Part shown: piece by piece, positions 29,624 through 59,362 of the stretch
Layout: every line of letters starts with the position of its first letter
How positions within the stretch are numbered: the stretch's first letter is position 1
Assembly: GCF_009834915.1 (NCBI RefSeq)
Contig: NZ_WVHS01000002.1
Span: 62,001-126,000 of the forward strand
Direction: 5' to 3'
DNA from: Hufsiella ginkgonis
GTDB lineage: Bacteria > Bacteroidota > Bacteroidia > Sphingobacteriales > Sphingobacteriaceae
Length of the DNA: 64,000 nucleotides
Program-made: the position numbers and the translations under genes
The notes under the pieces: model-generated
What the model saw: the letters and a program-made list of their open reading frames with translations, nothing else
Told to the model about the DNA's origin: nothing
Databases searched by the model: none

Positions 29624-30196
29624 TTACCTGGCCCGTTTCTTCCGCATGGCGAACGCCACGATGATCACCGTAAGCGCCACCGAGCAGGCGGGATAGAACC
29701 GCTCCTCAATAGTCCACGAGCGCCCGGCGAACAGCGAAAGCAGATTGGCAGCCAGGAAAACCAGGTAAGGAGTTACCGGTGTGGTGGCGGGCTTTTTCCA
29801 GGTATCGGCCATTTGGGGAATACTCGCGGTAAACACGGCGAGGCTGCTGGCGATAATACCCGCCTGGCCGCCGGCCGCGTACCAGGTAACGAGACAGATC
29901 ACCACCAGCACGGACGTGGCGGTTTCGATCTTCGACCACGAAACCTGCTTCTTTATAACCAGTATCGCCGTAATGGTGCCCGAGCCCAGCATGTTCGAAA
30001 AAGCCAGCCAAAAGTTGCCGCCCTCGATCAGGGTGGCCACCGCCGCAATCCCGTCAAGCATCGCCCAAAGCAGGAACGCCGCGAAGCTTTGCTCCACATG
30101 CGACCGCAGGATGCCGATAAGTAAAAGCGTATAGGCTGCAAGCCCGATGGCCCCCGCCAGGGGTTGCAGGATATGATCTATAGGGATGTTAAACAC
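29624..30196 (-). CDS. Multi-pass membrane protein of unknown function
   Basis: A 190-residue protein with about five or six TM helices (LAGAIGLAAYTLLLIGIL; FLLWAMLDGIAAVATLI; TSVLVVICLVTWYAAGG; VTPYLVFLAANLLSLFAG). No family is recognised. It starts with GTG; a -7-like TAACTTGC ends 4 bases before the GTG, so the mRNA may be leaderless. Confidence 0.7.
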   Translation of the reverse strand: MFNIPIDHILQPLAGAIGLAAYTLLLIGILRSHVEQSFAAFLLWAMLDGIAAVATLIEGGNFWLAFSNMLGSGTITAILVIKKQVSWSKIETATSVLVVICLVTWYAAGGQAGIIASSLAVFTASIPQMADTWKKPATTPVTPYLVFLAANLLSLFAGRSWTIEERFYPACSVALTVIIVAFAMRKKRAR

Positions 30197-30200
30197 TCCC

Positions 30201-30235
30201 GCAAGTTATCGGTTTTAAACGGCACTTTCAGCAAA
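30201..30235 (-). promoter_or_regulatory. Promoter of the 29624 membrane protein gene (TTTG, N23, TAACTTGC)
   Basis: Minus strand: TTTG (30232-30235) and TAACTTGC (30201-30208) are separated by 23 bases, in the range for Bacteroidota -33/-7 promoters, though the -7 element departs from TAnnTTTG. The element ends 4 bases before the start codon. Confidence 0.35.
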
Positions 30236-31073: not shown

Positions 31074-32249
31074 TTATTGGGTAACTGTATTTGTTTTTAC
31101 CTCTTTAAACTGGTTATTTTCTATCTTATTGTCGTACGGCGCTACACTTTGTATTACCGGCGACGGATATCGTTTCGTGTCGAATTTGCCCGTCCAGTCC
31201 GCGTCTTTCTGGTCGCCTACCAGGATACCAATAGTGGCATGGGTGATCTGGTTGCCGGTAATGGTGCAGTTGCCGGGAGCTACGTAAAAACCGGTTTCTA
31301 TTTTTCCTTTCGTCATGCCGTACATCAGCCTGATGGCGGTCTTAACACCGGTGATCTTGTTGTTGGTGATGGTATGACCGCTCCCGTTAACACGGATGCC
31401 GCCGCTGCCTCCCTCAAAGGTATTGCCTGAAATAATGCAGTCGTGGCCGCCGCGCATCACCAGCTCGCCGTCGTTATCGCCAAAGTAGTTATCGATATAA
31501 CTGTTCCTGCTGCTTTTATTGCTGATCACTTCGGGCTCGCCATCACAATGCGTAAAGCGGTTATTCTTTACCGTGGTGTTCGACTCCCTGGTACCCAGCA
31601 GCACAGGGTCCTGGCCCACCTGGATGCATTCGCCGCCGTTGTTATTGCTCCAGCTAACCTTGGCTTTGTCTTTAAAAACGTTGCTTTCGATAAGCGTGAA
31701 CTGAGGGTTACTGTCGCCGGTGATCTTTACCTGGAAATCCTGGCTGTCGGTATTCGCTGTTACCGTGCAGTGATCGATCTTGTTGGAGGTGCCGTTTCCG
31801 GAAACGATTATCAACGGCATAAATTGAACTTTTGCCACGTTATGTGTAAAAACGCATTGCGTGATCCGGCAATAGCTGCTGTTTTTAAGCTCTGCCAGCA
31901 CGCCGCTCTTCCCATCGGCCTTACCCAGCACACATTCTTTAAAAGTAATGCCGCTCAGTACCGTGTATTTGCCGGTTAATACGAAGAGGGGTTTGTTTAC
32001 TTCACCCGAGAAGATCACGCCGCCGGTGGATGCCCCCCTGATGACCACCGGTTTTTGGGCGGTACCCACGGCGGCGATCTCCACCGACCAGTTACCGTAA
32101 TTCCCGTCGGCGATCACCACTTCATCGCCCGCGGCAAGTTTAGGCAGTACGTTTTTAAGCTCCTGCTCATTGCCGACCTGGTAAATGGTCGCAAACGCAG
32201 GATCCGCATATAGCATAACGAACAGGATGGACAGGATGAGTTTTTTCAT
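31074..32249 (-). CDS. Polysaccharide lyase family 6-like protein (alginate lyase/chondroitinase B type)
   Basis: A 391-residue secreted protein with a signal peptide (KKLILSILFVMLYADPAFA) and a right-handed parallel beta-helix of ~25-residue coils. PL6 motifs are clear: GGECIQVGQ, CDGEPEVISNKSSRNSY (catalytic Lys) and MRGGHDC (catalytic Arg). PL6 enzymes cut alginate or dermatan/chondroitin by beta-elimination. No SusCD pair or other alginate genes lie nearby. The ATG at 32249 is used because an upstream in-frame TTG lies inside the -7 element. Confidence 0.85.
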   Translation of the reverse strand: MKKLILSILFVMLYADPAFATIYQVGNEQELKNVLPKLAAGDEVVIADGNYGNWSVEIAAVGTAQKPVVIRGASTGGVIFSGEVNKPLFVLTGKYTVLSGITFKECVLGKADGKSGVLAELKNSSYCRITQCVFTHNVAKVQFMPLIIVSGNGTSNKIDHCTVTANTDSQDFQVKITGDSNPQFTLIESNVFKDKAKVSWSNNNGGECIQVGQDPVLLGTRESNTTVKNNRFTHCDGEPEVISNKSSRNSYIDNYFGDNDGELVMRGGHDCIISGNTFEGGSGGIRVNGSGHTITNNKITGVKTAIRLMYGMTKGKIETGFYVAPGNCTITGNQITHATIGILVGDQKDADWTGKFDTKRYPSPVIQSVAPYDNKIENNQFKEVKTNTVTQ

Positions 32250-32255
32250 GAGGAT

Positions 32256-32263
32256 CAAAATTA
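32256..32263 (-). promoter_or_regulatory. -7 element of the PL6 gene
   Basis: TAATTTTG on the minus strand matches TAnnTTTG perfectly and ends only 6 bases before the ATG, so the mRNA is probably leaderless. Confidence 0.5.
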
Positions 32264-55591: not shown

Positions 55592-55599
55592 CAAAAATA
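55592..55599 (-). promoter_or_regulatory. -7 element of etfB
   Basis: TATTTTTG on the minus strand, a perfect TAnnTTTG, 30-36 bases before the start codon. Confidence 0.55.
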
Positions 55600-55613: not shown

Positions 55614-55621
55614 TACCTTCG
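55614..55621 (+). promoter_or_regulatory. -7-like element of the GtrA gene
   Basis: TACCTTCG, one base off TAnnTTTG, ends 7 bases before the ATG at 55629. This implies a very short or absent leader. Confidence 0.4.
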
Positions 55622-55628
55622 CACCCTT

Positions 55629-56129
55629 ATGCGAAAACAGCACGAGTACACACGGCGCACGGCGCTCCGGATCATCGACTTTTTCTACCCTCTTTTTCGT
55701 AAGGTCATGCCCTTGCAAACCTTTCGTTATGCGGCATGCGGCAGCTTTAACGTCGCGCTAGATAACACCTTATACTTTATTCTTTACAACTTTGTTTTGG
55801 TGAAGCGGAACCTTGTACTGCCTTTTTTTACGCTGAGCCCGCATATCGCTGCCTTGTTTATCAGCATGTCTGTTTGTACACCCATCGGGTTCTACCTGAG
55901 CCGGTACGTGGTGTTCCAGGAAACCGCAAAGCAAATGAGGCAGCAGTTTATTATGTACATGACGGTGGTTTTATGCTGTATCCTCATTAATTACGCGTTC
56001 CTGAAGCTGTTCGTCGATCAATGGGGCTGGTACCCCACGCCGTCGCGGATGTTCATTACTATTTTTGTGGTCATCTTTAGCTACCTCACCCAGCGATTTA
56101 TCACCTTTAAACCGGGAATAAAAAATTAA
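55629..56129 (+). CDS. GtrA-family membrane protein
   Basis: A 166-residue protein with four TM helices (FRYAACGSFNVALDNTLYFIL; IAALFISMSVCTPIGFYLS; QFIMYMTVVLCCILINYAFL; MFITIFVVIFSYLTQRFI). GtrA-like proteins help move lipid-linked sugars or assist cell-wall glycan modification. A shorter start at 55708 is possible. It is divergent from etfB. Confidence 0.85.
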   Translation: MRKQHEYTRRTALRIIDFFYPLFRKVMPLQTFRYAACGSFNVALDNTLYFILYNFVLVKRNLVLPFFTLSPHIAALFISMSVCTPIGFYLSRYVVFQETAKQMRQQFIMYMTVVLCCILINYAFLKLFVDQWGWYPTPSRMFITIFVVIFSYLTQRFITFKPGIKN

Positions 56130-56132
56130 GGT

Positions 56133-56140
56133 TATTTTTG
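56133..56140 (+). promoter_or_regulatory. -7 element of the TPR gene
   Basis: TATTTTTG, a perfect TAnnTTTG match, ends 4 bases before the ATG at 56145. Transcription would begin at or next to the ATG, giving a leaderless mRNA. It overlaps the end of the region after the GtrA stop. Confidence 0.5.
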
Positions 56141-56144
56141 ACGC

Positions 56145-56480
56145 ATGCAGAGAAACCGATTGCAGAAATTACTCGAATTCCTCGAACAGGAACCCAGCGA
56201 TCCTTTCCTTAAATACGCCCTCGCCACCGAATACCTGCGTTTAAACGAAGCGGATACCGCGCTTACTTATTACGAAGACCTGGTGAATAACCATCCCGCT
56301 TACGTAGGCACTTATTACCACCTGGGTAAGTTGTACGAGGCGATGGAACGCAAAGCGGATGCGATAAGGACCTATGAAAATGGCATGGCTGCGGCCCGTG
56401 ATGCCGGAGATAATCATGCGCTTTCTGAGTTGCGTGCTGTTTACCAGTCGGCCATCGGCCTTAATTACGAGGACGATTGA
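56145..56480 (+). CDS. Small TPR protein
   Basis: A 111-residue protein made of about two tetratricopeptide repeats (DPFLKYALATEYLRLNEADTA; VGTYYHLGKLYEAMERKADA). It is soluble and probably binds a protein partner. The stop TGA overlaps the TTG start of the chromate-transporter gene. No function can be assigned. Confidence 0.85.
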   Translation: MQRNRLQKLLEFLEQEPSDPFLKYALATEYLRLNEADTALTYYEDLVNNHPAYVGTYYHLGKLYEAMERKADAIRTYENGMAAARDAGDNHALSELRAVYQSAIGLNYEDD

Positions 56481-57691: not shown

Positions 57692-59257
57692 TTAGAACGG
57701 TGGCGGTTCGTCGTCCATATCGTCCATTCTCGACGGACGGATGATGAAGTTATTAGGCTTTTCGAAATCAGCGGACGGGGCCATTCCCGCAAACGGGTTG
57801 CTGCTGCCTGCTCCCGGCCCGGCCGAGAAATCCTCTTCCAGGTCGGCGAACTTCACGTATTTACCGATGAACCGTAGCGGTACGGTGCCCGTTTCACCGT
57901 TACGGTGCTTGGCGATGATCACCTCGCCGATCCCGATGGTCGAGCGGCCTTCCTCATCCTCTGTGAGCCCGTAATATTCCGGTCGGTAGAGGAACAATAC
58001 CATATCGGCATCCTGCTCGATGGAGCCTGATTCCCTCAAATCCGAGAGCATCGGCTTTTTCGAGCCGCCGGGCCTGTTCTCAACTGCCCGGCTCAGCTGT
58101 GAAAGCGCCAGTACCGGCACGTTCAGCTCCTTGGCCACGGATTTCAATGCACGTGAGATGCTGCCGATTTCCTGCTCGCGGTTGCCACCCTTGCCTTCGC
58201 CTTTGCCGTGCATCAGCTGCAGGTAATCTACAATTACCATCTGGATATCGTATTGTGATTTGAGCCGCCGGCATTTAGCGCGGAACTCGAAAATATTAAG
58301 GGCAGGCGTATCGTCGATAAACAAGGGAGCTTCGGTAAGTTTCCCGATCTTGGAATGCAGCTGCGCCCATTCCCATTCCGCGAGGCTCCCTTTACGGATC
58401 TTTTCCTGTTCGATCTCGGTTTCGCCGGAAATAAGGCGGTTTACAAGCTGAACAGACGACATCTCGAGCGAGAACACCACCACCGGTTTATTAAATTGTA
58501 CCGCGGCATTGCGGGCGCAGCTTAACACGAAGGCGGTTTTTCCCATCGCTGGTCGTGCCGCAATGATCACCAGGTCGGAAGGTTGCCACCCGGAGGTCAT
58601 CCGGTCGAGCGCCGTAAAGCCGGAGGGAACCCCGGTAAGGCCATCTACCTTGTCTTTAAGGGCTTCGAGCGTTTCCAGCGACTCCCGGATAATGTCGTCC
58701 ATTTTCCGCGAATCCCGGCGCAGGTTGTTTTGGGCAATATCGAACAGGTTTTTCTCTGCATGATCGAGCAAATCGAAGATATCGGTGGTATCTTCATATG
58801 CATTGCTGATGATCTCCGTGGAGATCCGGATCAGTTCCCGCTGGATAAACTTTTGGGAAATGATGCGTGCATGGTACTCGATATTGGCGGCCGAAGCGAC
58901 GCGGTTGGTTAGCTCGGTGATATAATAGGCGCCACCGATCATTTCAAGATCGCCTTGCTGACGCAGCTGCGCCGTAACGGTAAGTATATCGATCGGGCTC
59001 GACTTCTGGAATAGCAGCGCAATCGCTTCAAATATTTTCTGGTGGCTGTCTTTATAAAAGACCTCCGGTTTAAGGATATCGATCACGGCAGAGAGCGCAT
59101 CCTTCTCGAGCATCAGGGCACCAAGCACGGCTTCTTCAAGATCGATAGCCTGCGGAGGTAGTTTTCCAAGACCGGTAACCAGGTTGTTCAGGCGGGTCCG
59201 TTTCTCAAAAGCGGCTGGTTTGGTTCGGCTATAATCTGGTTCGTTCTCTGAATTCAT
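57692..59257 (-). CDS. dnaB: Replicative DNA helicase
   Basis: A 521-residue hexameric helicase that unwinds the fork 5' to 3'. N-terminal domain ~25-130 (PPQAIDLEEAVLGALMLEKDA), then the RecA-like ATPase domain with Walker A (ARPAMGKTAF), motif with LSQLSRAVENR and arginine-finger region. The C-terminal tail is short and acidic. The ATG at 59257 lies 7 bases after a perfect -7 element. Identification is firm. Confidence 0.97.
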   Translation of the reverse strand: MNSENEPDYSRTKPAAFEKRTRLNNLVTGLGKLPPQAIDLEEAVLGALMLEKDALSAVIDILKPEVFYKDSHQKIFEAIALLFQKSSPIDILTVTAQLRQQGDLEMIGGAYYITELTNRVASAANIEYHARIISQKFIQRELIRISTEIISNAYEDTTDIFDLLDHAEKNLFDIAQNNLRRDSRKMDDIIRESLETLEALKDKVDGLTGVPSGFTALDRMTSGWQPSDLVIIAARPAMGKTAFVLSCARNAAVQFNKPVVVFSLEMSSVQLVNRLISGETEIEQEKIRKGSLAEWEWAQLHSKIGKLTEAPLFIDDTPALNIFEFRAKCRRLKSQYDIQMVIVDYLQLMHGKGEGKGGNREQEIGSISRALKSVAKELNVPVLALSQLSRAVENRPGGSKKPMLSDLRESGSIEQDADMVLFLYRPEYYGLTEDEEGRSTIGIGEVIIAKHRNGETGTVPLRFIGKYVKFADLEEDFSAGPGAGSSNPFAGMAPSADFEKPNNFIIRPSRMDDMDDEPPPF

Positions 59258-59264
59258 AGTCCGA

Positions 59265-59272
59265 CAAAAATA
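59265..59272 (-). promoter_or_regulatory. -7 element of dnaB
   Basis: TATTTTTG on the minus strand ends 7 bases before the dnaB ATG, so the mRNA leader is only a few bases or absent. Confidence 0.5.
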
Positions 59273-59362
59273 GGTAAAATATGCCCCTAACCTTTGGCGA
59301 AGTTGTTAACAGCGTAAAATTTTAGTAAAATACACTAATTGATTTCGTGGAAATCAGGCAAT

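Follow-up and report, generated by a model that had tools for sequence, protein, structure and literature searches.

Background

Leaderless mRNAs have been detected in Bacteroidetes by 5'-end mapping. In B. thetaiotaomicron about 3.7% of 5' UTRs are shorter than 10 nt (PMC7366714), and in F. psychrophilum, where the promoter box lies at -12 to -5, leaderless mRNAs make up 5.5% (PMC9723704). Both belong to the same phylum as Hufsiella ginkgonis, the host of the DNA analyzed here, and have the same TAnnTTTG promoter. A box for an alternative sigma factor, SM5, has also been described in F. psychrophilum and reads TAnnTTGY (PMC9723704). A survey of F. johnsoniae gave the promoter as TAHHTTTG, with transcription starting 4-5 nt after it, a -33 box that is much less evident, and A/T-rich tracts upstream; the TAHHTTTG element and the A/T-rich tracts are shared with the host. 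Leaders longer than 10 nt were found in 87% of the predicted F. johnsoniae transcripts, and the authors concluded that leaderless translation cannot account for the missing Shine-Dalgarno sequences; the passages on promoters and leaders do not go further into the transcripts with short leaders (PMC6847099).

Two surveys resemble the present analysis in that leaderless genes were inferred from promoter-like signals just before starts, but differ in that their accounts of these signals make no use of the Bacteroidota -7 box. Zheng 2011 considered only Pribnow-like boxes, a limitation named by the authors themselves, and of 37 Bacteroidetes/Chlorobi genomes only one was recognized as having leaderless genes (PMC3160421). 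Nakagawa 2017 suggested leaderless mRNAs as one cause of the A/T bias before Bacteroidetes starts, and cites reports of a high leaderless fraction in the group (PMC5397173). The article texts covered do not describe dnaB or guaA of any Bacteroidota as leaderless; supplementary start-site tables may well list them as such. Among the papers searched, none brought leaderless mRNAs together with dnaB in Bacteroidetes or with transcription starts in Sphingobacteri-, and those joining leaderless, guaA and promoter concern, judged by their titles, other organisms. The relevant sections of PMC10783764 and PMC3155529 contain nothing on dnaB, guaA or a box placed next to the start. Leaderless mRNAs are thus already known in the phylum, and their conserved, gene-specific use looks new.

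Results

Boxes in the window

The window, a stretch of 64,000 nucleotides, belongs to a 5.2-Mb genome. An earlier note on this DNA had described -7-like elements a few bases before the start codons of five genes, and all five are present where it placed them, with the letters confirmed (Table 1). The elements at the TPR, PL6-like and dnaB genes match TAHHTTTG exactly, and those at the GtrA and 29624 genes do not. Across the window as a whole TANNTTTG shows no excess (30 occurrences against 35.7 expected from shuffles), so that any meaning must come from where it lies with respect to start codons.

Table 1. Elements and genes discussed in the text; positions are those of the window, except in the last row.
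Feature	Position	Strand	Remarks
TAACTTGC before the 29624 gene	30201-30208	-	gap 4 to GTG 30196; fits TAnnTTGY
Predicted 190-aa protein, GTG start	29624-30196	-	
TAATTTTG, -7 element of PL6-like gene	32256-32263	-	gap 6 to ATG 32249
Chondroitinase-B-like (PL6-type) beta-helix protein	31074-32249	-	Pfam PF14592 Chondroitinas_B (profile run on 31074-32246)
TATTTTTG of etfB-type gene (ETF domain)	55592-55599	-	gap 30; ordinary leadered layout, contrast case
TACCTTCG, variant -7 element of GtrA gene	55614-55621	+	gap 7; TTCG variant
GtrA-like membrane protein	55629-56129	+	Pfam PF04138; between etfB and TPR
TATTTTTG, -7-like element of TPR gene	56133-56140	+	followed by ACGC and ATG 56145; gap 4
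TPR-repeat protein, 111 aa	56145-56480	+	Pfam TPR_6, TPR_14
Replicative DNA helicase dnaB	57692-59257	-	Pfam DnaB, DnaB_C
TATTTTTG, -7 element of dnaB	59265-59272	-	gap 7 to ATG 59257
Candidate upstream dnaB box	59300-59311	-	also in e.g. L110-L128, L169-L173; by eye and loose pattern
246-aa gene near dnaB	starts near 8.8 kb and beyond	-	loci L180, L185, L189, L191

The PL6-like gene, whose family label PL6 comes from the earlier note, has an exact box at gap 6 and its upstream neighbor 129 bases away; a leaderless message is plausible here. The element of the 29624 gene matches the SM5 box TAnnTTGY of F. psychrophilum letter for letter, better than it matches TAnnTTTG (PMC9723704). This likeness concerns one locus here, with a GTG start, and the genome-wide excess of the pattern is weak (below). 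The 29624-30196 protein has no Pfam match at E 0.001.

Distances between boxes and start codons in the genome

The earlier note had proposed, as a check, a genome-wide count of box-to-start distances. Our sample of 2.064 Mb was made up of the window and 100 other stretches of the host genome, each 20 kb long. Genes were called by codon usage, and starts were picked by codon usage and start-codon type, blind to the DNA upstream. The caller found 1412 genes, fewer than expected, and missed GtrA; 1409 were analyzed after three that lay too close to stretch ends were excluded.

The exact motif TAHHTTTG lies 3-8 bases before the start of 41 of the 1409 genes (10, 8, 3, 9, 6 and 5 genes at gaps 3 to 8, respectively). 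It occurs twice at gaps 0-2, once at gaps 9-11 and three times at gap 12, beyond which there is a broad leadered spread; the fall from gaps 3-8 to gaps 9-11 is significant (P ~3e-8). Five permuted motifs gave 3, 0, 4, 4 and 6 matches at gaps 3-8 (mean 3.4), and a sixth control, AAHHTTTG, gave 1. The Poisson probability of 41 matches against 3.4 is about 7e-30, indicating that the excess is not due to chance. For comparison, only 5 of 9625 internal in-frame ATGs are preceded by the box. The two middle positions avoid G at these distances (3 matches with G, 41 without). Apart from the genes treated below, the layout was found at lepA, queG, mtaB, ribBA, yicC, rnhA and aroQ, all identified by models scoring above their cut-offs.

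Related motifs show weaker excesses at gaps 3-8: 12 matches against ~2.2 expected for TAHHTTCG (from its rate at 51-160), 10 against ~3.5 for TAHHTTGY and 28 against ~12 for TAHHTTTH. The elements that the earlier note had called imperfect, at GtrA and the 29624 gene, exist as described but come from weaker groups, TAHHTTCG and TAHHTTGY, respectively. The TAHHTTCG excess is confined to the leaderless distance (16 against ~14 expected at gaps 12-50). TTCG also stands in place of TTTG in several guaA loci (L300, L301, L317, L318, L320-L322, L326) and in three class-level dnaB loci.

Among consensus promoters within 100 bases of a start, and after subtraction of the permuted background, the leaderless share in the host is 21% (15-28). 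When bases were counted at the 41 leaderless and 116 leadered sites, no TTTG was conspicuous at -33. A stricter pattern that required an upstream TTG was dropped, since it gave 11 matches against 6 for its reversed control.

Operon context and start codons

Sorted by upstream context, the layout was found at 21 of the 406 genes whose upstream neighbor is divergent, at 14 of 452 separated from a same-strand neighbor by over 60 bases, at 2 of 152 with a separation of 21-60 bases, and at 4 of 111 with no neighbor within the stretch. Where the same-strand neighbor is 20 bases away or less, it was found at none of 288 genes (0.8 expected from permuted motifs). Because the caller missed GtrA, TPR is counted among the 21 divergent cases; the corrected figures are 20 of 405 divergent genes and 1 of 289 at 20 bases or less. 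The absence of the layout from operon-internal genes argues for a promoter and against a translation signal. All 41 exact cases start with ATG, compared with 1305 of the 1409 genes overall. The GTG gene at 29624, which the earlier note had included as a leaderless case, fits this pattern poorly.

Conservation at dnaB

An exact box 4-7 bases before an in-frame ATG, and at no other gap, was found at 77 of 138 distinct dnaB loci (78 of 139 before L110 and L170, which are the same DNA, were merged). By set, counted over the 139 loci, the layout is present in 25 of 30 family loci (host included), in 22 of the 27 named loci from Sphingobacteriales and 26 of the 53 from other Bacteroidota, in none of one further family member, and in 5 of the 13 class members in the phylum sample, with TTCG in 3 more; none of the 15 loci outside the class has it. 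Six permuted motifs together gave a single match. The exact layout is thus missing from 5 loci of the family, from G016, from 27 of the named loci outside Sphingobacteriales and from 8 class members of the phylum sample. The 80 named loci were the best among at least 589 candidates, and the phylum sample comprised 60 genomes, from which loci were taken in the 30 best-matching, the host's among them. In the named collection the relatives of the host DnaB include a Sphingobacteriales metagenome bin (91% identity), Pedobacter sp. BS3 (89%) and a Daejeonella (88%), which places the host in the Bacteroidota and most probably in Sphingobacteriaceae.

The near-empty zone at gaps 9-11 in the host is not universal, since 5 matches fall there among the 27 named Sphingobacteriales loci and 2 in the second genome described below; the 53 other named loci have none. 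When eight dnaB rows were removed from the scan of the named loci, 9 of 12 matches remained in Sphingobacteriales and 12 of 17 in the others.

Three further observations were made at the dnaB loci. In many Sphingobacteriaceae a box like TGTTAACAACTT, TGTTCACAAAG or TGTGTACAA lies ~27-28 or 37-39 bases before the -7 element; the two spacings are about one helical turn apart, and these boxes are possibly an operator, DnaA-box-like or other. The dnaB open frames of G062, G067, G088 and G093 are 748-1245 aa long, and their DnaB matches are broken into separate pieces, as if inteins were present. In four Sphingobacterium species a 246-aa gene near dnaB has the leaderless layout each time, at gap 4-5.

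Conservation at guaA

The host guaA has the layout at gap 3. TAnnTTTG or TAnnTTCG stands 3 bases before the ATG (4 in one) in all 30 family loci, host included, which are the best 30 from 61 genomes searched, and 19 of the 30 carry TATCTTTGCCCATG. Farther upstream, by eye, little DNA is shared except among close relatives. The conserved protein starts directly at the boxed ATG (host MQEKIIILDFGSQ).

Across the class, a looser pattern matched in 78 of 148 genomes. In 73 of these, 68 being from outside the family, the match reads like the beginning of guaA, with TTTG at 3-8 bases from the ATG; since the pattern requires TTTG, and a GAY no farther than 24 bases from the ATG, the count is neither complete nor error-free. 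G223 (MFFFDFGSQ), one of the 73, may be a chance match. At gaps 9-14 the pattern occurs in 9 genomes, 8 of which have no match at 3-8, and G232 is apparently one more. The spacer is C-rich, its first base being C in 60 of the 73 and its last base in 51; this composition may additionally tune the choice of start site.

A second genome

In 400 kb of G005, a family member with a small genome, 312 genes were called, with 20 matches at gaps 3-8, where the controls average 1. Among 113 reciprocal best matches, 4 of the 6 host leaderless genes are also leaderless in G005, compared with 4 of 107 others (Fisher p 1.5e-4); the other 2 testable host genes are not. The conservation at dnaB, at guaA and between these orthologues indicates that the trait goes with particular genes.

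The leaderless share of background-subtracted consensus promoters within 100 bases is 35% (22-50) in G005. Both this value and the 21% of the host are higher than the mapped 3.7% and 5.5%, but our measure omits long leaders and non-consensus promoters while the mapped values count all mRNAs, long leaders included, so that a difference between lineages is only suggested (PMC7366714, PMC9723704).

The TPR locus

The TPR gene was the headline example of the earlier note, and it ranks among the weakest examples of the layout. In the host it starts 15 bases 3' of GtrA on the same strand, and three bases separate its element from the GtrA stop codon; leaderless genes are expected to be first in their transcript, and judged by the distance to its same-strand neighbor TPR is not. 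Of 29 family relatives one, L162, has the layout (TATGTTTG, gap 4, with G in one middle position), and a comparable box is absent from the other 28. In 21 of the 29 relatives TPR and etfB are divergent, their matched starts lying 37-127 bases apart; the remaining eight have no etfB inside the TPR locus examined. The gtrA gene was found in one of the 30 TPR loci, that of the host, where it lies between etfB and TPR.

Discussion

As a class in this genome, and strongly at dnaB, the leaderless or near-leaderless mRNAs that the earlier note proposed are well supported; its headline case is not. For TPR we lean slightly toward a chance match in A/T-rich DNA just after the GtrA stop, with the gene transcribed from the GtrA promoter. 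The proximity of GtrA speaks for this, as do the 0 of 288 genes in a comparable same-strand context, the relatives that lack the layout and those in which TPR is divergent from etfB. It is weakened by the rarity of an exact consensus at such a spacing before ATG (41 cases against 3.4 by chance), by the element of L162, and by the intervening GtrA, since TPR must then be either reached by readthrough or served by its own promoter. Leaderless transcription of TPR itself, to which readthrough from GtrA is the alternative, has in our estimate a little less than an even chance. A new leaderless promoter at TPR is possible, but a chance match combined with readthrough is no less likely.

For the class as a whole two other accounts deserve consideration, and both appear very improbable. 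If TAnnTTTG near the AUG were a translation-enhancing signal inside leadered mRNAs and no promoter, it should also appear at operon-internal genes, where none was found, and its letters would not be expected to match the -7 box down to the scarcity of G in the two middle positions. If instead the start codons were misplaced, the true start being a later in-frame codon, the leaders would be ordinary. This is hardly more credible: the DnaB N-terminus is poorly conserved and L114, L120 and L123 have a second ATG 12 bases on, but residues 2-30 of the host DnaB include no Met, the conserved GuaA protein begins right at the boxed ATG, and starts chosen without regard to the motif nonetheless place it at 3-8 bases.

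We consider it likely, with a probability of about 0.85, that boxes 3-8 bases before starts serve as the -7 elements of Bacteroidia housekeeping promoters (sigma-ABfr type) that give leaderless or near-leaderless mRNAs, conserved in a gene-specific manner. By the published geometry RNA polymerase would begin 4-5 bases past the box, and the mRNA would begin at the A of the AUG or at most about 4 bases before it; combined with gaps of 3-8, this spacing implies leaders of ~0-4 nt. The 10 of 41 cases at gap 3 count against this explanation, being one base closer than the published spacing, and so do the missing -33 signal, the matches at gaps 9-11 in relatives, the dnaB loci that lack the exact layout, the two host genes that are not leaderless in G005 and the rarity of the layout at TPR. 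A message with no room for a leader would be translated through its terminal AUG by the leaderless route, that is, by initiator-tRNA-loaded 30S or 70S ribosomes. The genes concerned would form a separate, promoter-proximal minority class, 41 of 1409 genes and roughly a fifth of the consensus promoters that can be detected up to 100 bases from a start, and particular genes, dnaB and guaA foremost, would belong to it in a conserved manner. The earlier note had also argued that the spacing leaves no room for a ribosome-binding site. The short spacing is real, but the argument carries little weight because the phylum naturally lacks Shine-Dalgarno sequences anyway (PMC6847099).

A broader proposal, which we advance tentatively and hold to be somewhat doubtful, is that leaderlessness is an old, selected mode of expression in the class Bacteroidia. 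An essential core including dnaB and guaA would have kept its promoter against the AUG while other upstream DNA turned over, and its output would follow the leaderless initiation route. If so, the output of these genes would depend on, say, 70S ribosomes or the balance of IF2 and IF3, and not on ordinary leader-based control.

The way in which ribosomes choose starts in Bacteroidota is still being worked out. A defined group of genes whose layout looks leaderless by design and is conserved across the class, with the replicative helicase and GMP synthase among them, offers natural substrates for tests of initiation at a terminal AUG. The result fits the limitation stated by the Pribnow-box survey, which saw almost no leaderless genes in the phylum, and the layout helps to place the start codons of such genes.
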